From NCBI GenBank assembly GCA_900314975.1, contig OMXI01000001.1, positions 1 through 64,000 on the forward strand: a DNA stretch of 64,000 nt, given 5' to 3'. The notes under the pieces were generated by a model. The model did not search any database. It was not told the origin of the DNA and saw nothing but the letters and a program-made list of their open reading frames with translations. How positions within the stretch are numbered: the stretch's first letter is position 1; every line of letters begins with the position of its first letter. Position numbers and translations under genes: made by a program. Below, one piece after another: positions 26,307 through 45,247 of the stretch. The stretch comes from an uncultured Eubacteriales bacterium. Lineage in GTDB: Bacteria > Bacillota > Clostridia > Oscillospirales > Ruminococcaceae.

Positions 26307-27209
26307 ATGCCGTTAAGACTGAAAGAGACCTTACCGGTCATAGAGAAGCTGAAGAAAGAAAATATATTTGCAATGACGGAAGAACGTGCGCAGCATCAGG
26401 ATATCCGTCAGCTCAAAATAGCTGTGCTTAATCTGATGCCTGACAAGGAAAACACCGAACTGCAGCTTTTGCGGCTGCTTTCCAATTCGCCTTTGCAGAT
26501 AGAGGTAACGTTTATCAGGCTGGTAACACATCAATACAAAAACACGCCTGCATCGTATATGCTCAACAACTATCTGCCGTTTTATCAGATAGAGAACAAA
26601 TACTTTGACGGACTTATCATCACGGGTGCGCCTGTGGAGAAGCTGGCTTACGAGGACGTTGATTACTGGGGCGAGCTCAGCTCGATATTTGAATGGACAA
26701 GGCTGCATGTTACCTCTACGCTGTACTTGTGCTGGGCGGCGCAGGCGGGTTTGTACTATCATTACGGAGTGCATAAGTTTGAGCTTGACAATAAGCTGTC
26801 GGGTGTTTTCAGCCACACCGTTACAGATACACAAAGCGAGCTTTTGCGCGGCATAGATAAAAACTTCTATGCACCGCATTCAAGATACACGGGCTTGAAC
26901 AGGGATGACATAATAAGCAACGACAAGCTGACAATAACAGCGGAATCTGACGAGGCAGGTCCTTACATCATAACTGATGACAAGGGAAATGTTTTTGTAA
27001 ACGGACATCCCGAATATGACCTTTACAGGCTGTCAGAGGAATATATCCGTGATACTGACAAAGGGCTTTCGCCGCAGGTGCCAAAGAACTACTTCCCTGA
27101 CGACGACCCCGAAAAAGAGCCTGTGAGCCGCTGGCTGAGTGCGTCAAACGTACTGTTTACGAACTGGCTGAACTACTTTGTATATCAGATAACTCCTTAT
27201 GAATTCTGA
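26307..27209 (+). CDS. metA: Homoserine O-acetyltransferase (MetA family)
   Basis: A 300-residue MetA-family transferase. The nucleophile is Cys142 (YLCWAAQAG); the catalytic His/Glu pair is in NGHPEYDLYRL. Position 111 is Glu (GAPVEKL); in characterised MetA enzymes Glu at this position goes with acetyl-CoA and Gly with succinyl-CoA, so the product is probably O-acetylhomoserine, the substrate of both MetY enzymes here. GGGGAGG precedes the ATG. It follows the Rrf2 gene by 18 bases and probably belongs to the suf transcript. Confidence 0.93.
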   Translation: MPLRLKETLPVIEKLKKENIFAMTEERAQHQDIRQLKIAVLNLMPDKENTELQLLRLLSNSPLQIEVTFIRLVTHQYKNTPASYMLNNYLPFYQIENKYFDGLIITGAPVEKLAYEDVDYWGELSSIFEWTRLHVTSTLYLCWAAQAGLYYHYGVHKFELDNKLSGVFSHTVTDTQSELLRGIDKNFYAPHSRYTGLNRDDIISNDKLTITAESDEAGPYIITDDKGNVFVNGHPEYDLYRLSEEYIRDTDKGLSPQVPKNYFPDDDPEKEPVSRWLSASNVLFTNWLNYFVYQITPYEF

Positions 27210-27251: not shown

Positions 27252-27584
27252 TTACAGTATTTTGTCAGAGATAAATTTTTTCAGCACTGCATCAATACTG
27301 CCGCTGACCTCAAAGACTCTGACGTTCTTGGCGATAAGATATGCCGCTGCGCCCTCCCCTATCCTCTGCACGAGCAGCGCATCACAGTCGGAAAGCAGCT
27401 CGATTATCTTATCAAAGCGCGTGGTATCATGTCCGAGGCTATGCTGACAGACGGCGACTGCATCACGCACCTCAAGAAAGTCATAGCCGTTGTCGCCGAG
27501 CAGATACACACGAAAGAATTTAGCATGACCGAAATGCTCGTTGACGGTGAAGCCGTCACTTGTTGCTACTGCTACCTTTGACAT
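27252..27584 (-). CDS. NifX/NifB-C-type dinitrogenase cofactor-binding protein (first copy)
   Basis: A 110-residue protein of the Nitro_FeMo-Co family, an RNase H-like fold that carries or protects nitrogenase-type cofactor precursors. The hallmark is ATSDGFTVNEHFGHAKFF (residues 7-24); VGYG/RIGEG-type strand near LLVQRIGEGAAAYLI. GGAGAG precedes the ATG. Last gene of the operon, 54 bases after the K-like subunit with a hairpin in the gap. A second family member is at 32211. Confidence 0.88.
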   Translation of the reverse strand: MSKVAVATSDGFTVNEHFGHAKFFRVYLLGDNGYDFLEVRDAVAVCQHSLGHDTTRFDKIIELLSDCDALLVQRIGEGAAAYLIAKNVRVFEVSGSIDAVLKKFISDKIL

Positions 27585-27608
27585 AGCATCACTCTCCTTT
27601 TAATACAC

Positions 27609-27633
27609 AAGCTGCCGCGGGGAACGGCAGCTT
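27609..27633. other. Perfect 9-bp hairpin between K-like subunit and nifX-like gene
   Basis: AAGCTGCCG / CGGCAGCTT with a 7-base loop. In the direction of transcription (minus) there is no T-run, so it is more likely an mRNA 3'-end stabiliser or processing point than a terminator; on the plus strand it is followed by TTTTTT but no plus-strand gene needs it. Confidence 0.55.
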
Positions 27634-27638
27634 TTTTA

Positions 27639-28979
27639 TTACTTGTATGTTGCAAGTGCGGTATTGTAGATGTCCTCGATTACTCTCAAGCCTCCTGTAT
27701 AGCCGACATAATTCGTTGTCAGAACGATACGGTAAGGAGTTGGACAAGCGATGGAAAGAAAATCCGCATTTATCTCTGCGGCAAGCTCTTTATCCCAGCC
27801 ACTGCCGAGGATAAGTCCTCTGCCCTTGTGTTTGAGACCACGGATAACATCCTGCATTGCGCCTGCATCGGCATCAAAGTACACAGGTATCTCGCGCTTG
27901 TCGGAAGTCGCCTTGATATCGTCAGCTATCTGCTGCTGATACTTTGCGGGAACGTTATCGACGATGAACTGCTCCTTGGGAACAAGTCCTGTTTCGTGCA
28001 GCAGGAACTTTGTCAAGCCTGTAACGTAGCCTGAATCGTGCAGGATATGCACGTAGCTGGGCAGACCGTAGCGGAACTCCAAAAGGAATGTTGCGAGGTT
28101 GTCAAGCTCCTCGTAATAAGCTTTTTCTTCCTCTGCAATGAATGCTCTTGCCTTTTTCTCGTCTATCTCTGCGCCCTGCTGTAGTGCGAAATCAACAACG
28201 CCGTTTAGGAACTTTGTTGTTTCGTTTGCGCCGATAGGCATATAGCCGAACTTGAAATACGGCTGACCGTAGCGGCGCTGAAGATTCTTGACTATCGGCT
28301 CGCCGTACCATGGCGAAACAAAGACGTTGAAGTTCGCCTTGGGTATGGTTTGCCATTCCTTAACGCCAGCCGAGTGAGGTCCGAAAAGGATATTGACCTT
28401 TAAGCCAAGCCCTTCAAGCAGACGCTTGTACTCTTTGAGATTGCCTTTCCAGAACTGGTCCTGATAAGGTATAGATGCGATAAGGTTAACAAGGTTCTTT
28501 TCAGAGCGAGAGGGATTCTCTTCTTCAAAACGGCTGACATACTGGTCGATTATCGCATTGACGACAGCCGAATGTGAAACATAGTTGTTTGACTTGAAGC
28601 CCGATGTCTCAACGTGTACTATCGGTCTGTCCTCCTCGTAGAGAAACTCGTCTGTTACACTTGCAACATCATCGCCGACGATGCCTGCGGTACAGCCCGT
28701 AACAACGACCTGAAGGTCGGTGTCAAGCACCTTGTAGGTATTTTTGATTATATTGCGCAGTCTGTCAGTGCCGCCGAAAACGACCTCTTTCTCGCTGAAA
28801 TTGGTACACGGTGCCGTCTCGCCGCCCGCATAGCCTGCCGAACGCTCAAAAAAGCCCTTTATCATTACTCCGCAGCCGGGTCCCGAATGCAGTATCGGCA
28901 CCGCGCGCGGTATTGCGACAACTGTCTGCAAAGCGCCTATCGCGCAGGTATAGCGCTCCTGTTCAATCAATCCTGCCAT
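27639..28979 (-). CDS. Nitrogenase-like component, K-type subunit (beta)
   Basis: 446 residues of the nitrogenase component 1 family, NifK/NifN-like. Three cysteines match the beta-side P-cluster ligands: Cys12 (YTCAIGALQ), Cys36 (HSGPGCGV) and Cys96 (VVTGCTAGIVGDD), with spacings of 24 and 60 residues against 25 and 58 in NifK. Paired with the D-like subunit upstream (12-base gap), it would form the alpha2beta2 reductase. The sequence groups with nitrogenase-like (group IV) proteins by context, not with true N2 reductases. By synteny this is the MarK-like subunit of a possible methylthio-alkane reductase; the substrate is inference. Confidence 0.85.
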   Translation of the reverse strand: MAGLIEQERYTCAIGALQTVVAIPRAVPILHSGPGCGVMIKGFFERSAGYAGGETAPCTNFSEKEVVFGGTDRLRNIIKNTYKVLDTDLQVVVTGCTAGIVGDDVASVTDEFLYEEDRPIVHVETSGFKSNNYVSHSAVVNAIIDQYVSRFEEENPSRSEKNLVNLIASIPYQDQFWKGNLKEYKRLLEGLGLKVNILFGPHSAGVKEWQTIPKANFNVFVSPWYGEPIVKNLQRRYGQPYFKFGYMPIGANETTKFLNGVVDFALQQGAEIDEKKARAFIAEEEKAYYEELDNLATFLLEFRYGLPSYVHILHDSGYVTGLTKFLLHETGLVPKEQFIVDNVPAKYQQQIADDIKATSDKREIPVYFDADAGAMQDVIRGLKHKGRGLILGSGWDKELAAEINADFLSIACPTPYRIVLTTNYVGYTGGLRVIEDIYNTALATYK

Positions 28980-28991
28980 GTAGATTCACCT

Positions 28992-30458
28992 TTACTTTCC
29001 CAAGAATGTATACGGCTCCTGCTCAAGCCACCATTTTGTATACGGATTTGACGAATGCTTTGCAAGGTTCTTTACAAACTCGTCATTCTCGATTGTTTCA
29101 AGTATACGCTCGCCGTAGTTGACAAGTCCCTCGTAGCCCATTCCGAAATGCTCATCACCTATAAGCAGTGACGGGATACCGAGCTTTGCGCCCCACAAGG
29201 TCATACCGCCGTGACGCGCAAGCAGAATGTCGGGCTTGATGCGGTTAAGAACATTGACAAGCTCAAATTCCTGCTTGTTGCAGACGTTATAATTCGGAAC
29301 ATCGCCGTAGTCCTCAACGGTGTGTTTGAGTGTATCTGCACGCTCGTCCTCGTTATCGTACCGCGGGTCATGGTGGAATATCGCAGCACCCTGCGGCTGC
29401 ATACCAAGCTCTTTGAGCAGGGCAAGAAGTGAGTGTCCGTGTGATGCACCTGCGGTAACGTATGCGGTCTTGCCTTTTAGCTTTTCGCGCAGGGCTTCTA
29501 TCTTTGGCATATACTCCTGCTTTTTGCGCGCAAGGAAATCCTCTACCTCTTTTTCCTTGCCCAGTATCTGACCGAGTTCTCTGAACCAGCGGTCTGTTTG
29601 TGCAATGCCGTAAGGTGGTGAGTTTCTAATCTCGGGAACGCCGAATGACTGCTCAAGTGCTGCGCCGAGGTAGCTGCCAAGCGTTGAGCAAGCCTGTACG
29701 GTGAGTGCAGCCTCGCTGGAGTAGCTTAAGCTGTCAACGGTTGCAAAGGGGGTGATGTAGTTTGGTTCATAGCCAAACTCTGCAAACCACTCGCGGAAGA
29801 TATCACTGCCCCAGAAATTGATGACGTTGATGATGTTTCTCTTTTGTCTTGCGGGCTTGATTATCTTTCTTGCTATGCCGTGGTAGCCTGCGTCAAAGCC
29901 AGATGTCCACATCTTCGAGCGGAATCCCTCGCAGAAAACTGCCACAACAGGAATGCCAAGCTCTTTTTCTGCGGCATTGGTAACGCTCTCGACATCGTCA
30001 CCGATGATACCTGCTGCGCAGGTGGTGATGACAAAGATAGCCTTTGGCTTTGCTCTTTTGAACACCTCGCGGATAGCGGATTCGAGTTTCTTTGCGCCGC
30101 CGTAAATGGTATCCTTTTCTTCAAGGTTGGTCGAGAATATCTTTCTCTGTGTCGGGTGGTCAAGCTGGCGAAGATATGCATTAACGCGGTATGTAAACGC
30201 AAACTCGTGCAGACAGGTCGAGCAGCCGACAGGTCCGTGTGAGATTATCGCTGCGTCCTGGATAAGCGTGAGGGTACAAGCGGCATTTGATGTGCCGCAG
30301 CCAAGGCACTGGCTGAAAGAACGGTTCTTGTCCTTGAGTTTTGCGCAGCCCGAGCAGGCGGAGACAAGCTCCTTCGCTGTGCCCTGAAAGCCCGTGATAG
30401 AACCCAGACGTATCTCGCGTATTTCGACCTCGGGTATATCTAAATTGACTTTACTCAT
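28992..30458 (-). CDS. Nitrogenase-like component, D-type catalytic subunit (alpha)
   Basis: 488 residues. P-cluster-type cysteines: Cys54 (LGCGTSN), Cys79 (SHGPVGCSTC) and Cys147 (VITTCAAGIIGDD). Cys257 (VQACSTLGSYLG) aligns with the cofactor ligand Cys275 of NifD, and His437 (GDEHFGMGYEG) lies where NifD has His442, so a NifB-derived cofactor is plausible. The CEGFR segment (176-180) is followed by Trp184 and Phe188 where NifD has Gln191 and His195, both important for N2 reduction. Additional Cys35, Cys38, Cys51, Cys61 and Cys82 are unusual. AGGAGAG precedes the ATG. By context the MarD-like subunit of a C-S-cleaving reductase; function inferred. Confidence 0.85.
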   Translation of the reverse strand: MSKVNLDIPEVEIREIRLGSITGFQGTAKELVSACSGCAKLKDKNRSFSQCLGCGTSNAACTLTLIQDAAIISHGPVGCSTCLHEFAFTYRVNAYLRQLDHPTQRKIFSTNLEEKDTIYGGAKKLESAIREVFKRAKPKAIFVITTCAAGIIGDDVESVTNAAEKELGIPVVAVFCEGFRSKMWTSGFDAGYHGIARKIIKPARQKRNIINVINFWGSDIFREWFAEFGYEPNYITPFATVDSLSYSSEAALTVQACSTLGSYLGAALEQSFGVPEIRNSPPYGIAQTDRWFRELGQILGKEKEVEDFLARKKQEYMPKIEALREKLKGKTAYVTAGASHGHSLLALLKELGMQPQGAAIFHHDPRYDNEDERADTLKHTVEDYGDVPNYNVCNKQEFELVNVLNRIKPDILLARHGGMTLWGAKLGIPSLLIGDEHFGMGYEGLVNYGERILETIENDEFVKNLAKHSSNPYTKWWLEQEPYTFLGK

Positions 30459-30473
30459 AAAGCACTCTCCTAA

Positions 30474-32210
<1,737 letters not shown>

Positions 32211-32235
<25 letters not shown>

Positions 32236-32582
32236 TTGTCAACCTCCCATTGTTTTTCCTCCATCAGCAGACATAATGACTGCTCGATCTGAAGCGGCAT
32301 CTGATATAAGGCGATGCCCTTTTGAGTTATATACTCCTGTGCGCCGTATCCCACGCGCTGTGCAACTATCGCAGACACATTGCCCAGTGCATCAAGCACT
32401 GCATCAAAGCCCGAAAGCTCGTGCGAGCCGCCTTGGCAGGCGGGTGAAACATCTTTTTGTGCGATGATGTCGCAATCCTGCTTTTCGGTATCGAGCTGTG
32501 CGATATAAAACTTTTCAGCAGCTCCGAAATGCCTGTCAATATTGACTCCGTCAGAGCTTGCAAATGCTATCAGATAAATCAT
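32211..32582 (-). CDS. NifX-type dinitrogenase cofactor-binding protein (second copy)
   Basis: 123 residues, Nitro_FeMo-Co family: ASSDGVNIDRHFGAAEKFYI (residues 8-27) and AQRVGYGAQEYI. The start at 32582 follows GGTGATAAA; the longer frame to 32648 runs into the mccA-like gene and is rejected. It immediately precedes and overlaps nifB by 25 bases, as if it replaced the NifX domain that is fused to NifB in many diazotrophs. It may carry the NifB product to the D/K apoenzyme. Confidence 0.87.
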
Positions 32583-32592
32583 TTTATCACCG

Positions 32593-33501
32593 TTATCCAA
32601 AAAGTCCCGTGCTGAAATATCTGTCTCCTCGGTCCGGAAAAACAACAACTATGTTTCCGCTGTCAAGAGTTTTTGCAAGCTTTAAGGCTGCAGCCATTGC
32701 AGCGCCTGATGATGAGCCTGCGATTATGCCCTCGTTTCTGGCAAGGTCTCGGACTGTGGAGAAAGCCTCCTCGTCGTTTACCTTGACCACCTTATCCACA
32801 AGACTGATATCCATGGTATCGGGTATAAAGTCATTTCCTATGCCTTCGATATTATAATCAAAATGCTCTCCGCCGCCGATAGTCGAGCCTTCAGGGTCTG
32901 CAAGCACGCCCTGCACGGTCGGGTCCTGCTCTTTGATATATTTTACTATGCCTGTGTAGGTACCGCCGCTGCCTGCGCCTGCGACAATGTGCGTTACCTT
33001 GCCGCCGATATCGTCCCAAATCTCCTTGCCTGTGGTTTCATAATGTGCAAGGGGGTTGTTGGGATTTTTGAACTGCTCAAGCGAAATGGAACCGGGGATC
33101 TGCGCTTTAAGCTCCTCTGCTTTTCTTACAGCGCCGAGCATACCTTCAGAGCGCGGGGTGTTTTTCACCTCTGCACCGAGCGCACGCATAAGCGCCTGCT
33201 TTTCTGCGGAGAACTTTGTGGGGACTGTGAAGATGACTCTGTAGCCTTTTCCAAGTGCTGCGAATGCGATTCCAAGTCCCGTATTGCCTGCGGTAGCTTC
33301 GATTATCGTACCGCCTTTTTTTAATCTTCCCTCTTTTTCAGCAGCAGCTATCATATACTCGCCTATGCGGTCTTTAACGCTGCCTGAGGGATTATACATT
33401 TCAAGTTTAGCATAAATATGTACATTGGGGGAAACCCCCATATTTACGAGCTCTACAAGCGGTGTATTGCCGATGAGCTTATGCATATTTTCATACAGCA
33501 T
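32593..33501 (-). CDS. mccA: MccA/YrhA-type cystathionine beta-synthase or cysteine synthase
   Basis: A 302-residue PLP enzyme of the CysK/CBS family, PLP lysine Lys43 (NPSGSVKDR). It differs from the CysK at 18446: the substrate loop reads ATAGNTGLG, followed by PTKFSAEKQALMRALGA and GMLGAVRKAEEL, and a DPEGSTIGGG loop, features I associate with Bacillus MccA (YrhA), which condenses O-acetylserine with homocysteine to cystathionine. Next to an MccB-like gene (8-base gap) this would give reverse transsulfuration to cysteine. Plain O-acetylserine sulfhydrylase activity cannot be excluded. Confidence 0.72.
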   Translation of the reverse strand: MLYENMHKLIGNTPLVELVNMGVSPNVHIYAKLEMYNPSGSVKDRIGEYMIAAAEKEGRLKKGGTIIEATAGNTGLGIAFAALGKGYRVIFTVPTKFSAEKQALMRALGAEVKNTPRSEGMLGAVRKAEELKAQIPGSISLEQFKNPNNPLAHYETTGKEIWDDIGGKVTHIVAGAGSGGTYTGIVKYIKEQDPTVQGVLADPEGSTIGGGEHFDYNIEGIGNDFIPDTMDISLVDKVVKVNDEEAFSTVRDLARNEGIIAGSSSGAAMAAALKLAKTLDSGNIVVVFPDRGDRYFSTGLFG

Positions 33502-33509
33502 TTTTTTAC

Positions 33510-34670
33510 TTACCTCTCTGTTTTGCTTTTCTCAATAGCCTGCTCAATATCTGCAAGTATATCGTCTATATCCTCAATTCCTATCGAAAGTCTTATCAGT
33601 CCGTCGGTTATGCCGACTTTTTTACGAATCTCTTCGGGGATAGAGGCGTGTGTCATACTTGACGGGTGACATACGAGTGACTCGACTCCGCCAAGGCTCT
33701 CGGCAAGCGTTACAAGCTCAAGGCTTTCAAAGAACTTTTCGATATCGTATCCGTCCGTAAGCTCAAAAGAAATCATCACGCCGCCGTTTTTAGCCTGCGA
33801 CTTGTTTATTTCGTAGCCCTTGTCGGTTTCAAGTCCGGGATAATGAACGCTCTTTACTGCGCTGTGTCCGCTTAAAAACTTTGCGGCTGCCTGCGCGTTT
33901 GCAACGTGTCTGTCAAGCCTTACGCCGAGTGTTTTGATACCTCTGATAAGCAGAAAGCTGTCAAACGGCGGAAGAACTCCGCCTGTGGAATTCTGCACGA
34001 ATGCGATCTTATCGGCAAGCTCTTTCGTCTTTGCTATTGCAAGTCCCGCAACGACATCGCTGTGTCCGCCGAGGTACTTGGTCGCACTGTGAACAACGAT
34101 ATCTGCGCCAAGCTCGATCGGTCTTTGCAGGTAGGGTGTCATAAAGGTGTTATCCACAATGACGAGCAGACCGTGGTCATGTGCGATATCTGCTATCTTT
34201 CTTATGTCCGTTACGGTCATAAGAGGATTTGCGGGGCTTTCAAGGAGAACAGCCTTTACGTCGTCGGTTATATCCTTTTCAAAAGCCTCGGGGTCTTCGG
34301 TATCGGAAATGGTGTAGCTTATATTAAAATGGTCAAATACATTGTTCAGAAGTCTGAACGTTCCGCCGTAGACGTTTGAGGAGATAAGCACTCTGTCTCC
34401 CGAATGCAGAAGGCTCAGAACTGCGGTCTCTGCGGCAAGTCCGCTTGCAAAGGCAAAACCTGCATATCCGCCCTCAAGCTCTGCGATTAGCTTTTCAAGC
34501 GCTTCACGGGTGGGGTTTCCTGTTCTTGAATACTCATAGCCTCTCATTTTTCCAAGACCGTCCTGCTTGAAAGTTGAGGTCTGGTAAATAGGGATATTCA
34601 CTGCGCCCGTGCGCTCGTCAATGGAAATACCGCCGTGTATCAGCGCGGTATCAATGCTTTTATAACTCAT
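33510..34670 (-). CDS. mccB: Cystathionine gamma-lyase/synthase family enzyme (MccB/MetB type)
   Basis: A 386-residue PLP enzyme of the Cys/Met family, in the short length class of MetB, MetC and MccB. PLP-binding segment VVHSATKYLGGHSDVVAG; YEYSRTGNPTREALE near the N-terminus binds the phosphate across the dimer. Two start Mets are present; AAGGA is only 3 bases before the first (34676) and about 9 before the second (34670), which I prefer. First gene of the nitrogenase-like operon and next to an MccA-like gene, so cystathionine gamma-lyase (cysteine release) is the favoured role over gamma-synthase. Confidence 0.75.
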   Translation of the reverse strand: MSYKSIDTALIHGGISIDERTGAVNIPIYQTSTFKQDGLGKMRGYEYSRTGNPTREALEKLIAELEGGYAGFAFASGLAAETAVLSLLHSGDRVLISSNVYGGTFRLLNNVFDHFNISYTISDTEDPEAFEKDITDDVKAVLLESPANPLMTVTDIRKIADIAHDHGLLVIVDNTFMTPYLQRPIELGADIVVHSATKYLGGHSDVVAGLAIAKTKELADKIAFVQNSTGGVLPPFDSFLLIRGIKTLGVRLDRHVANAQAAAKFLSGHSAVKSVHYPGLETDKGYEINKSQAKNGGVMISFELTDGYDIEKFFESLELVTLAESLGGVESLVCHPSSMTHASIPEEIRKKVGITDGLIRLSIGIEDIDDILADIEQAIEKSKTER

Positions 34671-34761: not shown

Positions 34762-34777
34762 GTGATAACGTTATCAC
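34762..34777. promoter_or_regulatory. LacI-type operator upstream of the nitrogenase-like operon promoter
   Basis: Perfect 16-bp palindrome GTGATAACGTTATCAC with the central CG typical of LacI/GalR operators. It lies 9 bp upstream of the -35 box, centred near -52, a position that suits activation rather than occlusion. Confidence 0.85.
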
Positions 34778-34875: not shown

Positions 34876-34891
34876 GTGACAACGTTATCAC
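34876..34891. promoter_or_regulatory. LacI-type operator, second copy
   Basis: GTGACAACGTTATCAC, one base from the perfect palindrome, centred 114 bp from the first. The rest of 34671-34985 holds no gene. Confidence 0.8.
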
Positions 34892-34953: not shown

Positions 34954-34969
34954 GTGATAACGTTATCAG
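34954..34969. promoter_or_regulatory. LacI-type operator, third copy
   Basis: GTGATAACGTTATCAG, one end base off the palindrome, 78 bp from the second and 16 bp after the lacI-type gene's stop. Confidence 0.8.
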
Positions 34970-34985
34970 CATTAAGACGCTGCGT

Positions 34986-36059
34986 TCAGATGTAGTATTC
35001 AGGCTCTGCAATTTCGCTGTAACTGCGGCAGCTTTCACGGATTATAAGCGTACCCTCAAGCTCAATGCGCGAAACTATTTTATGCCCTCCCTTTATTCTG
35101 TCAAGCAGAAGCATAAGCGCAAACCTCACCATATCGTACTTGGGGAGTGATATCGTTGTCAGCATTGGCTTGGTGTACTGCCCCGCATCTATATCATCGC
35201 TGGATATGACAGAGGGTATGTACAGCTTTTGCCTGCGCTTTCCAAAGGCGTTTATAATACCTATCGCAAGAATATCATTGGCGCAGTAAATGCCTGTCGG
35301 CGGGTCTGAAAGACCTTTGAAATAATCGTATGCGATAAGTCCGTTCTGCTCGTTGGGTGAGGTATCAAACACATAATCAAGGTCGGGTGCAAGGTGCATA
35401 TCGGCAAGCGCTGCCTGATAGCCTGTAAAGCGCGATTCGTTATGGCAGTCACCGACATATGCTATCTTTGTGTGACCGAGCCGTGCAAGATATGCAACCG
35501 CGTCGCGTGCTATCCTGCTGCCGTCGCAAAGTACTTCATCGACCTCGTAATTTGTCGAGTTCCTGTTTATTGAAACAATGTTCTTTTCTTTCGTTTTAAG
35601 GGCACGCAGCGCACGCCTTGTGACTTTACCGATGATTATCAGTCCGTCATACCTGCGGGTGCTGTCAGCATAGAGAGAATCGATTAGCGCGCCGAGATTG
35701 TCTGCTCTGCTTGCTTTTTCATCGGAGAATTCCGCATTATGCCACACATTTGCAATGATACAGCCGCTGTTTCGCAGCTCTTTCTCCAGCTGCATCAGAA
35801 GCTCGTCATAAAACGGGTCTGCGGTTTCGCTGGAAAACCTTGTGAGCAGGATATTTATACAGTATATCTTGTCACCTCTGCTGTCACCCGATTTGAGATT
35901 TCTTGCATTGGCGTTTGGGATATAATTTATCTTACGCGCTGCTTCAAGCACTCGCCTGCGTATCTCTTCATTTGAACACTTGTGTTTTGGGTCGTTGAGT
36001 ATTCTTCCTACCGTCGACACTGAAACCCCCGTCATTTGCGCTATTTCCTTCAATGACAT
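34986..36059 (-). CDS. LacI/GalR-family transcriptional regulator of the sulfur operons
   Basis: 357 residues: HTH at 1-22 (MSLKEIAQMTGVSVSTVGRI), hinge helix (INYIPNANARNLKSG) and a periplasmic-binding-protein-like sensor domain. It lies between the two operons that carry GTGATAACGTTATCAC palindromes and is the obvious candidate to bind them. The family usually senses sugars or nucleosides; the sensor ligand here is unknown and could be a sulfur compound. GGAGGA precedes the ATG. Its own promoter has a degenerate operator over the -10 box. Confidence 0.9.
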   Translation of the reverse strand: MSLKEIAQMTGVSVSTVGRILNDPKHKCSNEEIRRRVLEAARKINYIPNANARNLKSGDSRGDKIYCINILLTRFSSETADPFYDELLMQLEKELRNSGCIIANVWHNAEFSDEKASRADNLGALIDSLYADSTRRYDGLIIIGKVTRRALRALKTKEKNIVSINRNSTNYEVDEVLCDGSRIARDAVAYLARLGHTKIAYVGDCHNESRFTGYQAALADMHLAPDLDYVFDTSPNEQNGLIAYDYFKGLSDPPTGIYCANDILAIGIINAFGKRRQKLYIPSVISSDDIDAGQYTKPMLTTISLPKYDMVRFALMLLLDRIKGGHKIVSRIELEGTLIIRESCRSYSEIAEPEYYI

Positions 36060-36103
36060 AACTGCGTCCTCCTTTCAACATAGTTTTCATATCAGATTAC
36101 TAT

Positions 36104-36135
36104 GATATGTTATCACAACAATTGTTTATTGTCAA
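36104..36135 (-). promoter_or_regulatory. Promoter and degenerate operator of the lacI-type gene
   Basis: On the minus strand TTGACA, 17-base spacer, TAACAT. The segment GTGATAACATATCAT overlaps the -10 region and matches one operator half plus most of the other with one base missing, suggesting autorepression. Confidence 0.55.
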
Positions 36136-36215
36136 TATTTTAATTGTTAATTTTCTAAGATATAAAGAAAGACTTTCCCGCAAAAATGGCTGAGGAAAAA
36201 TCTTTCAGAATACAT

Positions 36216-36698
36216 CTACAGTCTTATTCGCATCTGATACCACTGTACACCGCCTATGACAGAGTTGTTCGTCACGCCCTCACTTACAAACCCGAACTTT
36301 TCATAGTATCTGATAAGCTCCTGCTTACAGGTAATCACGACACCCTTTCTGCCCTGTATTTTTGCTGTTCTGATAAACTCCTTGAGAAGCCTTTGAGCAA
36401 AGCCTCTCTGTCGGAAATCGGGCAGTGTACACAAGCCAAAGACCATTTGCCACTCGCCGTTTTCATCGTGCAGGTATGCATCTTCATACATTTCATCTGT
36501 CAGGTCGGGCAGATCGGTTGTAAAGCCGTTGATGAACGACACCACCTTGCCGTACTCGTCGCACATAAGCATAAAATGATTCGGGAATGACAAAAGGCGT
36601 GCTTTGAATGCTTCTTTTCCCGCTGCCTGTCCCTGCGGAAAACATATGCTTTCTATGCGTGCTATTTCGTCAAGGTCACTTTGCTTTGCATTTCTTAT
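36216..36698 (-). CDS. GNAT-family N-acetyltransferase
   Basis: A 160-residue GNAT protein. The acetyl-CoA loop is in QRGFAQRLLKEFIRTA, preceded by MVFGLCTLPDF; the C-terminal YYEKFGFVSEG strand is typical. The start at 36698 follows AGAAGGG; the frame to 36755 overlaps the ABC gene and is rejected. It is the last gene of the nine-gene metY/transporter operon, 7 bases after the ABC ATPase. The acceptor substrate is unknown. Confidence 0.85.
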   Translation of the reverse strand: MRNAKQSDLDEIARIESICFPQGQAAGKEAFKARLLSFPNHFMLMCDEYGKVVSFINGFTTDLPDLTDEMYEDAYLHDENGEWQMVFGLCTLPDFRQRGFAQRLLKEFIRTAKIQGRKGVVITCKQELIRYYEKFGFVSEGVTNNSVIGGVQWYQMRIRL

Positions 36699-36705
36699 GA
36701 CCATA

Positions 36706-37383
36706 TCAACCCTTCTCTCTGATAAGTTTGCCCTGCCGCATCTGAAGCAGGACATCTGCTTTATCGCGTCCGAACAGCTCGTGGGTAACTATGACTGCGG
36801 CTGCACCGCTGTCTGCTGCTTTTCGGAGATGTTCAAAAACGAGGTGCGAGGTTTCTTCGTCAAGGTCGTTTGTTGGCTCATCGGCAAAAATGACAGACGG
36901 CGAATTAATAAGCGCGCGTGCGATAGAAAGCCTGCGCAGCTCTCCGCCTGACAGCACGTTTGCGCGCACATCGCAAAGCTGCTGCAAACCAAGCTGTTCA
37001 AGCAGCTTATCTGCTTTGGATATATCCTTGCCCTCACCTATAACAGCAGACGGCAAGAGAACATTTTCTCTGACGGTCAATGTGCCGACTGCGGTATGAA
37101 GCTGCGGAATATAGCCTACCTCTTTGCAGCGCAGCAACGATAGCTCACGGTCATTGATGCTGTATATATCGCTGCCGTCATAGCAAACCTCTCCGCTGCT
37201 TGGCGAAAGAATTCCAGAAAGTATGTTCAGCAGCGTGCTTTTGCCGCTGCCTGAACGTCCGTATATCACATATACCTTGCCGCTTTCGATACTAAGGTCT
37301 ATATCCGAAATCACCTGCACAGAGCCTTGAATACCCTTACCGCGCCGATAGCTTTTGCTGATGTTGTGCGCTGTGATCTGCAT
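36706..37383 (-). CDS. ABC transporter ATPase, LolD/FtsE/MacB type
   Basis: 225 residues. Walker A YGRSGSGKSTL, signature LSGGELRRLSIARAL, Walker B VIFADEPTNDLD and switch His in VIVTHELF. It is adjacent (0-base gap) to an FtsX-like permease and so forms a MacB/LolCDE-type mechanotransmission or export pair, not an importer. Located in the metY operon; cargo unknown. Confidence 0.9.
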   Translation of the reverse strand: MQITAHNISKSYRRGKGIQGSVQVISDIDLSIESGKVYVIYGRSGSGKSTLLNILSGILSPSSGEVCYDGSDIYSINDRELSLLRCKEVGYIPQLHTAVGTLTVRENVLLPSAVIGEGKDISKADKLLEQLGLQQLCDVRANVLSGGELRRLSIARALINSPSVIFADEPTNDLDEETSHLVFEHLRKAADSGAAAVIVTHELFGRDKADVLLQMRQGKLIREKG

Positions 37384-38589: not shown

Positions 38590-38990
38590 TTCGCTTTCTT
38601 CTTCCCGACAAAGCCTGCAATGACATCGATAAGCGCGATAAGCGCAAGCACTGCTGAAACAACAATGACCGCAGGCTTGAATGTACTGTGGCACGCCATA
38701 TCCTTCATCATGCAAAGGCTGATAGCTGTTTCGGGGATAAATATAACAGAAACGGACAGTGCAAAAATACCGATAGAAAGTCCTGTTTTTATCTTATCAT
38801 CGGGGATGACGATACGCGCAAGCGCAAGTACAGTCAGTACTGTTCCGATAAGTACAACAGCATTCTGCGCCCAATGGCAAGCCATATACTTTCCGTCCAT
38901 ACCGTCGCACGCTTTGAAAAACGTGAACGCGCCAATTGTCAGTACCAGAGCTGCTATGCCCTGGGCTATTGCTAATATTAATCTCTTCAT
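38586..38990 (-). CDS. DUF4418 four-helix membrane protein
   Basis: 134 residues with four predicted membrane helices and the short Cys-bearing segments MACHWAQNAV and MKDMACHSTFK, the pattern of DUF4418. GGAGGG precedes the Met at 38990. Such proteins commonly sit next to FtsX/MacB-type ABC genes, as here. Function not known. Confidence 0.78.
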   Translation of the reverse strand: MKRLILAIAQGIAALVLTIGAFTFFKACDGMDGKYMACHWAQNAVVLIGTVLTVLALARIVIPDDKIKTGLSIGIFALSVSVIFIPETAISLCMMKDMACHSTFKPAVIVVSAVLALIALIDVIAGFVGKKKAK

Positions 38991-39013
38991 ATTAAACCCT
39001 CCAAACATTTTTA

Positions 39014-39793
39014 TCATATTATGTACTCAGGCTGCGGCTGTGCCTGTTCAAGCTCAAAGAATTCAAGTATCGACTTTCGCAGCGCCAGGAACTCTGTGCC
39101 GCCTCTGTGACGGGGTCTTGGCAGGTCGACATTTACGATCCTGCTTATCTTACCCGGGCGCGGCGTCATAATCACTATGCGGTCACTAAGGTAGATAGCC
39201 TCATCAATATCGTGAGTGACAAGAATCATCGTTGTGCCTTTTTGCTTCCAAAGCTCTATCAGTTTATCCTGAAGGTCTGCCCTGGTAAAAGAATCGAGCG
39301 CACCCATCGGTTCGTCAAGCAGCAGAGCTTTGGGTTCGTTGATCAGCGCTCTTGCTATTGCGACTCTTTGAGCCATACCGCCTGATATCTGATGCGGATA
39401 TGAACTCTCAAAGCCGTCAAGTCCGACCATTGAGATATAGTCCTTGACCTTTGACCTGGCACGCTTGAAAACACCTCTTGCTTTCAAGCCGTATGCGATG
39501 TTGTTCTCGACTGTCAGCCACGGGAACAGACTGCCCTGCTGAAAAACATACCCACGCTCTGTGGAGACGTCCTTTATTTTATGCTCGTCTATTGTAAGCT
39601 CGCCTGACTGCGGTTTGTCAAGTCCTGCGATAAGGCGCAGAAGTGTTGTTTTTCCGCAGCCTGAAGGACCTATTATTGAAACGAACTCACCCGGTTTTAT
39701 TTCAAGGTTTACATCGTAAAGTGCCTCGACCTTATTGCCGTCGGTGTCGGTGTATACCCTGTTGACATCAGTTATAGTTATACTGCTGCTCAT
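39014..39793 (-). CDS. SsuB/TauB-type ABC transporter ATPase
   Basis: 259 residues. Walker A IGPSGCGKTTLL, signature ISGGMAQRVAIARAL, Walker B ALLLDEPMGALD and DEAIYLSDRI after the switch His, all typical of the nitrate/sulfonate/taurine importer group. The start at 39793 (GGAGGGAG upstream) overlaps the permease stop by 4 bases. Energises import with the permease at 39790 and the lipoprotein at 40931. In this sulfur context the cargo is probably a sulfonate or other organosulfur compound. Confidence 0.88.
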   Translation of the reverse strand: MSSSITITDVNRVYTDTDGNKVEALYDVNLEIKPGEFVSIIGPSGCGKTTLLRLIAGLDKPQSGELTIDEHKIKDVSTERGYVFQQGSLFPWLTVENNIAYGLKARGVFKRARSKVKDYISMVGLDGFESSYPHQISGGMAQRVAIARALINEPKALLLDEPMGALDSFTRADLQDKLIELWKQKGTTMILVTHDIDEAIYLSDRIVIMTPRPGKISRIVNVDLPRPRHRGGTEFLALRKSILEFFELEQAQPQPEYII

Positions 39794-40872
39794 TTTTTCA
39801 AAACTCCCTCCTGCCACCTGAGCGTGCGCTTTTTAATTATGCCGATAATATGGTTTATCAGCGAGAAAAGCACTGCCATTACCACGATAGCCGCAAGAAC
39901 CTTGTAGTATGCACTCCACACCTTTGACTGATTTATATAGTAGCCAAGACCGCCCGGCTGGCCAAGCATCTCGCTCATTACCAAAGTGGTGAAAGCCATT
40001 GCGTTTGCAGAGCTTATGCCTGTAAAGATATCGGGCATAGCGTGGGGTATCGCAACGTGTATGATAAGTCCGAGCTGTCCGCTTCCGAGTATGCGCGCGG
40101 CTTCATAGGTCTGCTTCGGGGTGGACTGTATGCCCTGTGCTGTGAGGAATGCGATCTGAAACCATGCACAGATAACGATAAGAAAAACCGCTGCGGAGAA
40201 CGAATTAGGCAAAAGCGTGAGTGCAAAAGGCATCCAAGCCACAGCGGGAACAACGCCTGTGATTTTAAGTATTGGGAATACCCAATAGTATACCTTCGGG
40301 AACCAGCCGATAAGTATGCCTGTGCCTACGCCGAGCAGCACTCCGCAGGAAAAGCCTGCTGCATAAAGCCGAAGCGAGTACAGTGTGTTTTGCACCACAT
40401 AATCGCCGTCGGCCAGATATGCCTCGATGACCTGTGCGGGACCCGGGAAAAAGGGCTGTGCAAACCACTGCATTTTTGTGCCGCCTATATCCCATAGTGC
40501 AAGTGCAACACCTATCGCAAAGCGAAAGGCTGCGTTTTTGCAGTAAAGCTTTCTTCTTGCACAAACAAAAAACGCTCTGATGCCTGCACCGCCGTATATA
40601 AGCATAAGCACGACCAGCACAAAGATATACGCATCGTTGATTGTCAGGTCGATATTAAGACCCAGCACGGTGAGCGTATAGGTCTTGAACTCCACCGCTG
40701 CCTTTTGCGGAAAAGCGATATTTACGATAATTGCAAGCAAAAAGCCCGACAGTGTGAGTAAAACCTTCAGTGCAAAATAGCCGTTATGCTTATACCCCCA
40801 TCTGACTGTTGGTTTTTCTTTTTCAGCAGCTGTATTCTGAACTTTAAGTTCAATTGCAGCAGCATTGTTCAT
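39790..40872 (-). CDS. SsuC/TauC-type ABC transporter permease, extended N-terminus
   Basis: 360 residues. The C-terminal 230 form a BPD_transp_1 permease with the EAA loop (QTYEAARILGSGQLGLIIHV). The N-terminal 120 residues add two or three extra membrane helices not found in the usual 250-residue SsuC; longer forms occur in some Clostridia. Start at 40872 with GGAGAG upstream. Partners are the ATPase at 39014 and the binding lipoprotein at 40931. Confidence 0.87.
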   Translation of the reverse strand: MNNAAAIELKVQNTAAEKEKPTVRWGYKHNGYFALKVLLTLSGFLLAIIVNIAFPQKAAVEFKTYTLTVLGLNIDLTINDAYIFVLVVLMLIYGGAGIRAFFVCARRKLYCKNAAFRFAIGVALALWDIGGTKMQWFAQPFFPGPAQVIEAYLADGDYVVQNTLYSLRLYAAGFSCGVLLGVGTGILIGWFPKVYYWVFPILKITGVVPAVAWMPFALTLLPNSFSAAVFLIVICAWFQIAFLTAQGIQSTPKQTYEAARILGSGQLGLIIHVAIPHAMPDIFTGISSANAMAFTTLVMSEMLGQPGGLGYYINQSKVWSAYYKVLAAIVVMAVLFSLINHIIGIIKKRTLRWQEGVLKK

Positions 40873-40898
40873 AGTATCTCTCCTCATATTCCAGTTTT

Positions 40899-40922
40899 AA
40901 GGGTGGCATTCATACCGCCCTT
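40899..40922 (-). other. Intercistronic hairpin between binding protein and permease genes
   Basis: AAAGGGCGG / CCACCCTT stem with a short loop and no T-run. Such stems after a substrate-binding-protein gene commonly stabilise its mRNA and lower downstream expression, giving excess binding protein over membrane subunits. Confidence 0.5.
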
Positions 40923-40930
40923 TGAATGAT

Positions 40931-41986
40931 TCACTTTACATCAACTTTTTGATAGATTTTCTTTGAGAATTCCTCGGGGTCAGTCTTAAGATAGCCTATC
41001 TTGTGCAGTCCGTCAACGAAATACTTAACGTCGCTTTCAACGCGTCCGTCCCAGCTGTCGTTGTGCTTGTCTGCCGACGGGTAACCGTAGCTCTTTACAA
41101 GGTCGACTGCAAGCTCTTTATCCTCGATAGATGCATACTTCTTATTGACGATTATATCTACTGACTTCTCGGGATTTTCATATATCCACTCCTGTGCCTT
41201 GCGGTATGCTCTTAGCAGTGCTGCGACTTCATCAGGGTTCTCGTTCAGAACCTTTGTCGAAGCATAGAGGAAGCAGCAGAAATGGTCCTTGAAATAAGTA
41301 TCTGTACCAAGGTCAAAGATTATCTTTACATCACCTGCTTTTTCATGAATAGAGCCGAGCGGATCCCACAGAGCCGCAACATCTATTTCGCCCTTTGAAA
41401 GCGCCTCAAATTCAAGGTTGCCGTCCGAATAAGGCAGGAATGTCACCTCGCCCTTTGCGGGATCTGCGGAGATGCCTGCGTTTTCAAGCCAAAGTGAAGC
41501 CACCTGATGAGGTGTGCCGCCTATCTCGTCAACGCCTATCTTCTTGCCCTTGAGGTCTTGAACTGTTTTGATGTCCGAATCGGGTCTTACTGCAAACTTG
41601 ATGCAGCCCTCGTGCAGACCGTCAACGACCTTTACATCGATTCCGTTCTCTATCGACGGGAAGAACTGGAAGTCACCGTTTACTATCGGAATAGAGCCGT
41701 TGTTAAGACCTATTTTTCTTGTTTCAAAATCCGCAGAAATAAGGTTTACGTCAAAGCCCTCATCAGCAAAGTATCCGTTTTCATATGCTATGTATATGGG
41801 TGCGCCGCAAAGTGCACCGTCTCTGCCGGGAATGTCTATTTTGCCGTACTTATAATCAGCCTTGCCTGTACTTGCCGCAGTGGATTCACCCGATTTTGAT
41901 GAATCTGCTTTGGACTCGCTCACCGAGCAGGATGCAAGCAGAACTGCCGACAAAACAAATGATAATACTTTTAATCTCTTTTTCAT
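40931..41986 (-). CDS. SsuA/NMT1-like substrate-binding lipoprotein
   Basis: 351 residues. Lipoprotein signal with lipid Cys20 (VLLASCSVSES), then a Ser/Lys linker and a periplasmic-binding fold of the NMT1/THI5/SsuA class (GAPIYIAYENGYFADEGFDV, then DLKGKKIGVDEIGGTP). AAGGAGAGG precedes the ATG. It captures the ligand for the adjacent permease and ATPase. The family includes binders of alkanesulfonates, taurine, nitrate and pyrimidine precursors; the neighbouring MetY and ECF genes favour a sulfur ligand. Confidence 0.87.
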   Translation of the reverse strand: MKKRLKVLSFVLSAVLLASCSVSESKADSSKSGESTAASTGKADYKYGKIDIPGRDGALCGAPIYIAYENGYFADEGFDVNLISADFETRKIGLNNGSIPIVNGDFQFFPSIENGIDVKVVDGLHEGCIKFAVRPDSDIKTVQDLKGKKIGVDEIGGTPHQVASLWLENAGISADPAKGEVTFLPYSDGNLEFEALSKGEIDVAALWDPLGSIHEKAGDVKIIFDLGTDTYFKDHFCCFLYASTKVLNENPDEVAALLRAYRKAQEWIYENPEKSVDIIVNKKYASIEDKELAVDLVKSYGYPSADKHNDSWDGRVESDVKYFVDGLHKIGYLKTDPEEFSKKIYQKVDVK

Positions 41987-42007
41987 TACTTTCCTCTCCT
42001 TTTCATC

Positions 42008-42547
42008 CTATTTTCTTGCTGCTGCAAGTCCTTTTGCAGCGGGTATCCATGCGATAACGCCTTCATAAAGCAGCACGCCGAATGATGCTCCGCCTATGCC
42101 CTGTACGATGTTTCCGGGAACTCCTGTGAGTGCTGTTGCGACCGAGCCGTAAAGGAATGCCTCAAATACGGCATATCCGACTATCATAACTATCTCTGCT
42201 GCTATTGCGGAAACTATCCTGCCCACGAAGTTCGGTGCTTTTTTGCTCAAAACCTTGTATAGTGCGAATGCAGCGACCGCCATAAGTCCCTTGATTATAA
42301 ATGTCGGGAGAACATACACGGTGTATCCGCCGAACAGGTCAGACAGCGCCGAGCCTATGCCTGCCGCTGCGCCGCCGTACACACCGCCGAGCAGCCAGCC
42401 TGCGATATTTACAAAGCAGTCACCAAGGTTGATGTAGCCCTTTGTCGGGGTGGGTATGCGTATCATCATAGTCGATACGGTTATGATAGCTGCAAAAAGT
42501 CCTGCAAGAGCAAGAATTATTATCTTATCATTTTTTCTTCTGCCCAT
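42008..42547 (-). CDS. ECF transporter S component
   Basis: A 179-residue membrane protein with about six helices, of the ECF S-component fold: KGYINLGDCFVNIAGWLLGG and YGGAAAGIGSALSDLFGGY are signature stretches. It would deliver a small ligand, often a vitamin, together with a shared EcfAAT module encoded elsewhere. It lies between metY and the SsuABC-like genes, so its ligand could be a sulfur compound or a cofactor of sulfur metabolism; not determinable from sequence. Confidence 0.85.
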   Translation of the reverse strand: MGRRKNDKIIILALAGLFAAIITVSTMMIRIPTPTKGYINLGDCFVNIAGWLLGGVYGGAAAGIGSALSDLFGGYTVYVLPTFIIKGLMAVAAFALYKVLSKKAPNFVGRIVSAIAAEIVMIVGYAVFEAFLYGSVATALTGVPGNIVQGIGGASFGVLLYEGVIAWIPAAKGLAAARK

Positions 42548-42573
42548 TTCACCCTGCTTCCCTTCATTTATTC

Positions 42574-43863
42574 TTACAGCAGACCTGCTGCCTTGAAGGC
42601 TTGCTCAAGGTCGGCGATAAGGTCGTCTGCATCTTCAAGACCTGCGGAAATACGGATAAGATTGTGAGGTATATCCGCAAGCTTTAGTTCGTCTTCGTTA
42701 AGCTCGCTGTGGGTGGTGTTGGGCGAATCAACTATCAGCGAACGGGCATCGCCGAGGTTGACGTGATAGTGGAACAGCTCAATGCTGTTGATGAATTTTG
42801 CTTCCTGCTCGGGTGTACCCTTGATGCCGAATGCAAGCACTCCGCCGCCGCCGTTGGTGAGGTGTTTGTCTGCAAGCGCTTTGAACTTATAGCTTGCAAG
42901 GCTTGGGTGACGCACCCACTCAACTGCGGGTGAACTTTCAAGGTAAGCTGCTATCTTCTCTGCATTTGCGCTTTGCTTGGCTACACGCTCGGAAAGTGTT
43001 TCAAGTCCGATGATGCCAAGGTAAGCATCCTGCGGAGAGAGCGCTGCGCCGAGCAGATTGAGATATACAAGCGTTGCGCGGAAGATAAAGAAATTATCAG
43101 GGAAAATATCAGCAGGTGATTTGCCCTTGAGCATTACTATCGGTTCATAGAACTGCGGATATTTTTCTTTGGTGTAAAGGCTCATATCGCCGTTGTCAAG
43201 GATAAGACCCGCGATGATATTGCCGTGACCTGTAAGTGCTTTTGTTGCGGAATAAACAACTATGTCCGCGCCGTGCTCAAGAGGTCTGTAAAGATAAGGT
43301 GTAGCAAGGGTGTTGTCAACCACAACAGGAACGCCGTGCTTGTGGGCGACCTCGGATATAGCATCGATATCAAGCAGATATGCGTTGGGGTTGCTTATCG
43401 ACTCGACATAGACTGCCTTGACATCATCGGTAAATTCCTTATTAAGCTTTTCGGGGTCAAGCACTGCATCTGTGAGCTTTATTTTTACGCCAAGCTCGGG
43501 GAAAAGTCTGTCGAAGGCATCTATTGTGCCGCCGTAAAGGTAAGGTGATGCAAGTATCGTGCCGCCCTTTGAAGCAAGATTGAGCAGCGTATAGCTGATA
43601 GCCGCCATTCCCGAGCCAACTGCGACTGCGTTCTTTGCACCGTCGAGCGCTTTAACTCTTTCTGCAAAGTAGGTAACTGTTGGGTTGCCTACTCTTGTGT
43701 AGAGATATCCTGCTTCTTTATAGGTGAACAGGTTCTGCGCGTGTTCGGTGCTTTTGAAATCGTAGGCGGTTGTCTGATAGATCGGGGGCGAGATCGCAAG
43801 ATTGTTGTCCTGTGGATCGTAACCTGCCTTTATTTTTTTTGTGTCAAATTTTAATTCTGCCAT
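42574..43863 (-). CDS. metY: O-acetylhomoserine sulfhydrylase, second paralogue
   Basis: 429 residues, MetY length and insert pattern; PLP segment VVYSATKALTGHGNIIAG. It is clearly diverged from the metY at 19394 (KALTGHGN against KFLGGHGT). First gene of a nine-gene operon with the organosulfur-type transporter and under the LacI-type palindrome shared with the nitrogenase-like operon, so it is the best candidate to accept methanethiol or another thiol produced by that system and make methionine. GGGAG precedes the ATG. Confidence 0.9.
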   Translation of the reverse strand: MAELKFDTKKIKAGYDPQDNNLAISPPIYQTTAYDFKSTEHAQNLFTYKEAGYLYTRVGNPTVTYFAERVKALDGAKNAVAVGSGMAAISYTLLNLASKGGTILASPYLYGGTIDAFDRLFPELGVKIKLTDAVLDPEKLNKEFTDDVKAVYVESISNPNAYLLDIDAISEVAHKHGVPVVVDNTLATPYLYRPLEHGADIVVYSATKALTGHGNIIAGLILDNGDMSLYTKEKYPQFYEPIVMLKGKSPADIFPDNFFIFRATLVYLNLLGAALSPQDAYLGIIGLETLSERVAKQSANAEKIAAYLESSPAVEWVRHPSLASYKFKALADKHLTNGGGGVLAFGIKGTPEQEAKFINSIELFHYHVNLGDARSLIVDSPNTTHSELNEDELKLADIPHNLIRISAGLEDADDLIADLEQAFKAAGLL

Positions 43864-43948: not shown

Positions 43949-43964
43949 GTGACATCGTTATCAC
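43949..43964. promoter_or_regulatory. LacI-type operator upstream of the metY/transporter promoter
   Basis: GTGACATCGTTATCAC, 9 bp upstream of the -35 box, exactly the arrangement at the nitrogenase-like operon. Confidence 0.82.
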
Positions 43965-44053: not shown

Positions 44054-44069
44054 ATGATAACGTTGTCTC
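44054..44069. promoter_or_regulatory. Degenerate LacI-type operator
   Basis: ATGATAACGTTGTCTC keeps the TGATAACGTT core with three changes from the palindrome; a further half site (TCGTTATCAT) ends near 44160. The rest of 43864-44282 holds no gene. Confidence 0.5.
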
Positions 44070-45209: not shown

Positions 45210-45247
45210 TACACAAGGTTATGAAAAGACATCAGGAGATAAGAAAT

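Follow-up and report, generated by a model that had tools for sequence, protein, structure and literature searches.

A 64,000-nucleotide window of the genome of an uncultured Eubacteriales bacterium of the Ruminococcaceae (contig OMXI01000001.1 of assembly GCA_900314975.1, positions 1 to 64,000) contains an operon in which nitrogenase-like genes stand together with genes of sulfur amino acid metabolism. With a probability of roughly three in four, as judged from sequence comparison, this operon encodes a nitrogenase-like reductase of subgroup IV-A that would cleave carbon–sulfur (C–S) bonds in organosulfur compounds and feed methionine and cysteine synthesis. The operon consists of eight minus-strand open reading frames (ORFs), mccB-mccA-nifX-nifB-nifH-D-K-nifX, extending from position 34670 to 27252, and its successive intergenic gaps measure 8, 10, -25 (an overlap), 22, 15, 12, and 54 bases. 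A preliminary description of this DNA had proposed an eight-gene, one-direction operon with gaps of at most 54 bases, which is borne out, and the profile families match the labels given there; its further statement that the operon is fused to sulfur genes holds in the sense that the genes are co-operonic, with no protein fusions. The functional unit is probably wider than positions 27252 to 34670, and would also comprise MetY2, an ATP-binding cassette (ABC) importer, and a LacI-family gene (34986-43863).

Gene Content of the Operon

Among the profile matches listed, a curated NCBIfam cut-off is passed only by the NifH and CysKM proteins. The scores of the NifB, D, K, and NifX proteins do not reach the nitrogenase-specific models, a result to be expected if the system is nitrogenase-like. 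The NifB-like protein contains HPC, CxxxCxxC, RPG, AGPG, TxTxN, and CxxCRxDAxG, which we take to be the NifB motifs; among 60 aligned NifB-like rows, two of these motifs are absent in two rows and one row, respectively, and the window row is complete. The same gene order is found in loci of Ruminococcus and R. albus, as far as their contigs extend, and the same partners recur in other orders in other phyla, so the arrangement is not a chance one.

Between 13.9 and 49.4 kb, the window holds MetF, MetH, CysK, MetY, suf, MetA, and MetE genes, many of which were named by eye. No nitrogen-fixation genes were seen outside the operon among the ORFs inspected, of which the profile scan covered some, and within that scope the earlier view that the surroundings concern sulfur rather than nitrogen fixation stands. 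A GC-rich hairpin, AGCTGCCG...CGGCAGCT, without a T-run, was noticed by eye at 27609-27632 between K and the last NifX-like gene, and perhaps serves in the processing or stabilisation of the mRNA.

Family and Cluster Ligands of the D and K Subunits

When compared with all sequences in the Protein Data Bank (PDB), both subunits find their best match in the methylthio-alkane reductase (MAR) of Rhodospirillum rubrum. The D subunit scores 449 bits against MarD (9fmg, 9d9u) and 138 bits against the next nitrogenase chain, and the K subunit scores 384 bits against MarK and 66 bits against the next nitrogenase chain, with local identities of 41.7% to MarD and 42.2% to MarK. The MarD alignment reproduces the published numbering of C66, C91, C158, C270, H375, R428, and H429 (PMC12552129), and the ligands of the window D can therefore be read off. 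The window D keeps the MAR cluster ligands C270 and H429 together with the hallmark R428 (MarD numbering), and all six P-cluster cysteines are retained in D and K. The residues C66, C73, C91, C158, W195, F199, C270, H375, R428, and H429 are kept in 23 of 23 D members of the clade described below, and the same set, C73 aside, is kept in all 31 rows of a second D set, while K residues C12, C36, and C96 align with the MarK P-cluster cysteines in 32 of 32 rows, MarK among them. The histidine at D437, invariant in IV-A and shared with MarD, may be the residue behind the published statement on "all ligands".

Other positions set the window enzyme apart from MAR. MarD H194 is replaced by Met in the window D and by Val, Ile, or Met in all 31 clade rows, and four cysteines are specific to the clade: D C51 (30/31), D C82 (31/31), D C393 (31/31), and K C58 (31/31). 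At these positions MarD has Gly and MarK has Ser, and the D cysteines occur in none of 10 MAR-clade D sequences. These four cysteines may ligate something extra.

At the positions of NifD Gln191, His195, and Gly424, the NifD of Pectinatus has Gln, His, and Gly, and the window and MAR have Trp, Phe, and Arg; the NifD and NifE of Pectinatus lack R428, H429, W195, and F199. Of these references, NifE scores above its own cut-off and NifD above the nitrogenase alpha-subfamily cut-off. Tetrapyrrole reductases were rejected as relatives on profile and PDB scores (BchNB and CfbD were compared by these scores, outside the trees): D and K fall far below all family cut-offs for BchNB, BchYZ, and CfbD. 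The top NCBIfam score of K is to BchB, at 91.6 bits against a cut-off of 490, and the best tetrapyrrole chains in the PDB reach 31 bits for D and 41 bits for K, as against 449 and 384 for MarD and MarK.

Phylogeny and Exchange with MAR

Trees were built from the D subunit alone, with FastTree on 44 hand-picked sequences and with IQ-TREE on the 42 that remained after two very divergent rows had been dropped. The window D falls in a clade of 23 sequences, whose sister clade numbers 15 and holds R. rubrum MarD, and IQ-TREE support is 98.6/99 for the window clade, 98/100 for the MAR clade, and 98.2/100 for the joint node; FastTree gives the window clade 0.84, which is lower than the 0.98 of the MAR clade. 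The window clade includes Endomicrobium proavitum NfaD and thus corresponds to Nfa, or IV-A, in the naming of PMC9147875. The window D therefore lies in this sister clade, IV-A/Nfa, and is not nested in the MarD clade (IV-C). Of the phylogenetic check put forward earlier, the part that could refute the proposal was run for NifD and NifE, and the window D is nested in neither. The proposal of a MAR-type system is upheld for the chemistry, through the ligands, the MarD and MarK top structures, the sulfur context, and the gene order of one MAR-clade locus (L173), but not for clade membership. MAR-type chemistry is well supported for the predicted window enzyme, and its substrate is probably another than that of MAR, given the replacement of His194, the four clade-specific cysteines, and the position in a sister clade.

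The exchange of subunits between the two clades bears on the same question. IV-A and MAR-clade D/K pairs occur in one cluster with MccB-MccA in Ruminococcus UBA7013 (L039) and in Pectinatus (L061; L071/L164). In a genome from another family of the phylum (G092), locus L173 reads mccB-mccA-nifX-nifB-nifH-D-K, the order of the window, until its contig ends soon past K, and its D groups with MarD and carries H194; the wider tree that includes L169-L173 has no support values. Similar helpers thus sit with either pair. It is unlikely, if well short of negligible, that the operon encodes a plain MAR acting on dimethyl sulfide, ethyl methyl sulfide, or 2-(methylthio)ethanol, with no new substrate. 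The cluster ligands and most active-site residues common to the window and MAR, the MAR-clade pair in identical gene order at L173, and the joint clusters L039 and L061 would all agree with such an enzyme. Against it stand the separate clade and the loss of His194 in every IV-A row, as well as the importer genes, which lie near D in 10 of 15 representatives although MAR substrates would be volatile and membrane-permeable. Moreover, the presence of both pairs next to each other in some genomes points to two substrates.

Further group IV pairs were met in these comparisons. L169, L171, and L172 represent additional D/K subgroups that keep the MAR-type Arg-His residues and perhaps act on other substrates. 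On contig C10 of R. albus AR67 (L131, L132), one D/K pair belongs to the MarD clade (42% to the window D), and another group IV pair, about 30% identical, adjoins a CysK-like gene and a NifX-like gene.

Co-Occurrence with Sulfur Genes

Genomic context was compared by tblastn and blastp of the window proteins against the best 80 of 295 related loci, plus others, with partner thresholds set by hand. The 82 loci with a D more than 60% identical were reduced to 30 representatives at 85%, 15 of which have at least 9 kb on both sides and are called well flanked here. In these 15, the partners near D are K (15), MetY2 (12), NifH (12), NifB (11), NifX (11), the substrate-binding protein (10), the ATPase (10), the permease (9), MccB (9), and MccA (8), and at least one of MetY2, MccB, and MccA is present in every case. 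The same holds for 24 of the 30 representatives; the six exceptions (L040, L072, L074, L078, L083, and L086) each have a flank shorter than 9 kb. Genes resembling the methionine importers MetI and MetQ, named by eye, are found in 9 and 7 of 33 loci, and of 398 genomes drawn evenly from the phylum, 10, among them the window's own, have a match at 1e-90.

The importer has the SsuA/TauA fold, and its binding protein carries four invariant cysteines (C60, C128, C237, and C238) and an invariant H125, besides the lipobox cysteine (rows above 33% identity and 250 amino acids; 31 of 34 and the window row were kept, and the alignment used 27). The protein is akin to SaoX, a family with selenocysteine-containing members, and scores below the cut-off of that family; in its nearest PDB relative, 3qsl, the four cysteines are missing at the aligned positions. 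An Ssu-like importer would suggest an isethionate or sulfonate reductase that releases sulfite, as IsrBHDK of Rhodobacter capsulatus works with SsuCAB (PMC11423573), yet such an activity is scarcely credible here. IsrD has one P-cluster cysteine and no cofactor cysteine, and IsrB resembles NifB in the radical SAM motif only (PMC11423573), whereas the window D keeps all of these cysteines and its partner has all NifB motifs tested; the cysteines of the binding protein that 3qsl lacks also speak against it. The sulfite reductase domain PF01077 was found in none of the window's own genome, R. albus AR67, and E. proavitum, a search in which 11 of 14 controls were positive and Pectinatus haikarae had a match, so that those three would gain little from a sulfite product. 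On its ligands, its NifB-type partner, and the missing sulfite reductase domain, the isethionate reductase was rejected.

Endomicrobium proavitum and the Question of Nitrogen Fixation

The NfaHDK proteins of E. proavitum, a termite-gut bacterium, belong to the same clade as those of the window (D 71-72% and K 64% identical) and share the four clade-specific cysteines. Their partners are of the same kinds, in a different order: MetY, substrate-binding protein, permease, ATPase, D, K, NifX, MccB, MccA, NifB, NifX, and NifH, with no LacI match in the stretch of the locus (L129) examined. As in the window, D and K lie below the nitrogenase-specific models, and they are the only PF00148 genes of the genome (two matches). 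Unlike the window system, this enzyme has been published as N2-fixing, under the names "Group IV nitrogenase", IV-A, and Nfa (PMC9147875), and no paper linking it to its sulfur cluster was found in the open-licence literature.

Several observations weigh against an organosulfur C–S reductase. Incorporation of 15N2 has been reported for E. proavitum (PMC9147875), and on that evidence IV-A would be a nitrogenase or an enzyme with both activities. N2 reduction is also known from the L-cluster proteins NifB and NifEN (PMC13245594). IV-A does not keep the His194 that MarD has close to its proposed substrate site. Of the 15 well-flanked representatives, 5 lack the binding protein and 7 lack MccA. 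At the MAR-clade locus L170, neither MetY nor Mcc nor an importer is seen over 14.8 kb, and MetY and Mcc are likewise missing from the more distant group IV loci L169, L171, and L172. A dual function, combining C–S cleavage with N2 reduction, is possible.

That IV-A is a true simple nitrogenase, fixing N2 in E. proavitum and here while the sulfur genes serve cluster assembly, is improbable. It would account for the 15N2 result in an organism with NfaDK as the only nif-like genes, where they are also the sole PF00148 pair, and for the NifB-like and NifX-like partners in the operon, and N2 reduction by the L-cluster lends it a precedent. NifEN, however, was not found in the window's own genome, where the PF00148 genes beyond the operon pair (four of six matches) are distant ones on contig C48 that score at most 88 bits against a nifE cut-off of 505. 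Furthermore, the NifD residues Gln191, His195, and Gly424 are replaced as in MAR, an enzyme that reduces acetylene but not N2 (PMC12552129), so that acetylene reduction would not prove fixation, and methionine or cysteine genes lie near D in all 15 well-flanked representatives. In Pectinatus haikarae and one Endomicrobium genome, IV-A coexists with NifDK, which fits a separate role. Canonical nitrogenase was rejected on the ligands, the D tree, and the missing NifEN. NifV gave no match over its cut-off in the window's own genome, E. proavitum (best 318.9 against 462.9), or Pectinatus, and none in 14 control genomes either. In Endomicrobium genome G002, contig C155 (L088, L096) carries NifDK-type genes besides the IV-A pair, with a D above the nitrogenase alpha-subfamily cut-off.

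Predicted Operator Sites

The palindrome TGATAACGTTATCA, allowing up to two mismatches, occurs at seven sites in the window against 0.18 expected, a number reached in none of 100 shuffles; three sites lie between the LacI gene and mccB, two before metY2, one within the LacI gene, and one at 21839. A site between the LacI gene and mccB is present in 25 of 26 related LacI-bearing loci, and one immediately before metY2 in 14 of 26, some of the remaining loci holding no metY2 in their stretch; these 26 loci come from closely related Ruminococcus-type genomes and are not independent cases. The operator-like sites, as predicted elements, tie MetY2, which the importer genes follow in the window, to the nitrogenase-like operon. 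Riboswitch control was rejected, as Rfam at the gathering level matched a single tRNA in the window and gave no hit in any of six relatives.

Proposed Pathway

In the proposed pathway, the SsuABC-like importer (39014-41986) would take up a polar, probably thiol- or thioether-containing compound, and the NifB-like protein, with its complete motifs, would build an [Fe8S9C] cluster together with the two NifX-like proteins. The D2K2 enzyme would then reductively cleave the C–S bond to free a thiol, methanethiol, or possibly sulfide, which MetY2 may join to O-acetylhomoserine to give methionine or homocysteine. In R. rubrum, the thiol is passed to methionine through MetY. MccA and MccB, by their family, would shift sulfur from homocysteine to cysteine; the mccAB genes of B. 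subtilis, a methionine-to-cysteine route, pair MccA with MccB as in the window and have no nitrogenase-like genes beside them. Through the predicted operator sites, the mcc-nif operon and metY2 would both be governed by a putative repressor of the LacI type.

Neighbouring Genes and a Second Nitrogenase-Like Locus

The features of the operon and its surroundings are collected in Table 1. MetA could supply O-acetylhomoserine to MetY2. The FtsX-like, LolD-like, and DUF4418 genes between the importer and the LacI gene are below the partner thresholds in all 30 representatives. Two LysR genes at 44283-46159, divergent from MetY2, lie upstream of MetE and MetF, and homologues of LysR1 adjoin MetY2 in some relatives.

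Table 1. Positions of the operon genes, neighbouring genes, and operator-like sites in the window (fractions refer to the 15 well-flanked representatives)
Feature	Position	Strand	Evidence
MccB-like PLP enzyme (cystathionine gamma-lyase/homocysteine lyase family), operon gene 1	33510..34670	-	PF01053; top NCBIfam NF005810, 547.9 bits (cut-off 594)
MccA/CysK-like PLP enzyme (OAS-dependent cystathionine beta-synthase or cysteine synthase)	32593..33501	-	TIGR01136 cysKM, 350.8 bits (above cut-off 344)
NifX-like protein 1	32211..32582	-	PF02579, 48.5 bits (cut-off 26.3)
NifB-like radical SAM protein without NifX tail, predicted [Fe8S9C] cluster maker	31354..32235	-	TIGR01290, 248 bits (cut-off 343.65)
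NifH-like reductase	30474..31331	-	TIGR01287, 452.6 bits (above cut-off 394)
D subunit, subgroup IV-A (Nfa), MAR-like	28992..30458	-	449 bits, 41.7% identity to MarD
K subunit, MAR-like	27639..28979	-	384 bits, 42.2% identity to MarK
NifX-like protein 2	27252..27584	-	PF02579, 76.5 bits (cut-off 26.3)
LacI-family regulator, predicted operon repressor	34986..36059	-	LacI-family NCBIfam matches, none over cut-off; operator-like sites adjoin
Operator-like palindrome TGATAACGTTATCA, upstream of mccB	34763..34776		exact match
Operator-like site	34877..34890		1 mismatch
Operator-like site	34955..34968		exact match
Operator-like site upstream of MetY2	43950..43963		2 mismatches
Operator-like site upstream of MetY2	44055..44068		2 mismatches
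MetY2, O-acetylhomoserine sulfhydrylase-like, predicted thiol-capturing enzyme	42574..43863	-	TIGR01326, 462 bits (cut-off 495); 12/15
Membrane protein near TIGR04002, between MetY2 and binding protein	42008..42547	-	71.4 bits (cut-off 120); 1/15
Substrate-binding lipoprotein, SsuA/SaoX-like	40931..41986	-	four invariant cysteines C60, C128, C237, C238 and H125
ABC permease, Ssu/Sao-like	39790..40887	-	NF040733, 98 bits (cut-off 295); 9/15
ABC ATPase, Sao/Tau-like	39014..39817	-	NF040729, 265.8 bits (cut-off 360); 10/15
MetA, homoserine acetyl/succinyltransferase, convergent neighbour	26307..27209	+	NF047918, 431.9 bits (cut-off 460.5); 1/15

The distant PF00148 genes on contig C48 of the same genome (L007:4033-17699) lie in a single gene run that reads HydF-HydE, then a NifH-like, D-like, and K-like set twice, then HypF-HypD and a gene that by eye is HypE-like. 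Neither this draft genome nor that of R. albus AR67 has a HydG match over the cut-off, although the [FeFe]-hydrogenase domain PF02906 has three and four matches in them, respectively, some of them weak; contig C18 of R. albus AR67 also carries four matches of the D/K type. The C48 locus could be a HydG-free route to the H-cluster through Hyp proteins and nitrogenase-like reductases, and a search of open-licence papers for such an arrangement found nothing.

Relation to Known Systems and Implications

MarBHDK of R. rubrum (IV-C, PDB 9fmg/9d9u) shares with the window a NifB-like maturase and HDK, the six P-cluster cysteines, and Cys270, Arg428, His429, Trp195, Phe199, and His375. It differs in its 42% identity and sister-clade position, in H194, which the window lacks, and in having none of the clade-specific cysteines; unlike it, the window operon is linked to MccAB, NifX, an importer, and a LacI gene. 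IsrBHDK of R. capsulatus likewise combines nitrogenase-like sulfur scavenging with an Ssu importer but differs in its radical SAM partner, in the single P-cluster cysteine of its D, in the absence of ligands of the FeMo-co type, and in its sulfite product. The closest published context is that of IV-A MarHDK-like genes near type I mlp gene clusters, which belong to the same subgroup and are linked to MetY, CysK, MccA, and other sulfur genes (PMC10418091). One organism named there is H. (Acetivibrio) thermocellum, the D of which belongs to the present set (P0079). The paper centres on corrinoid methyltransferases, and E. proavitum is not mentioned in the part of it drawn on here. The combination of genes, first taken as undescribed, has thus been described in part, though not wholly. 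Already known are MAR, the designation of IV-A genes as nitrogenases, and their position near sulfur genes (PMC10418091), while the equivalence with E. proavitum, the D/K exchange, the operator sites, and the subgroup-specific cysteines are new here.

For the whole IV-A/Nfa subgroup, including the E. proavitum enzyme that has served as proof of a "Group IV nitrogenase", the chances are evenly poised that its main role is that of a third kind of nitrogenase-like sulfur scavenger rather than that of a nitrogenase. Such an enzyme would cleave C–S bonds of polar organosulfur compounds delivered by a four-cysteine binding protein, using [Fe8S9C] and an extra metal site at the IV-A-only cysteines, and would feed methionine and cysteine in anaerobes of the rumen and the termite gut, with 15N2 incorporation as a side reaction.

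Genome papers on termite-gut and heliobacterial organisms have interpreted IV-A genes as genes of nitrogen fixation (PMC11257099, PMC9147875). If IV-A scavenges organic sulfur, these assignments of diazotrophy must be checked again, and acetylene reduction is no sufficient test for them, since MAR has that activity too. The clusters in which IV-A and MAR subunits stand side by side or are exchanged make the choice of substrate directly testable. If the proposed function is true, Ruminococcus and its relatives would possess an additional anaerobic route for organosulfur compounds, possibly with the release of hydrocarbons.

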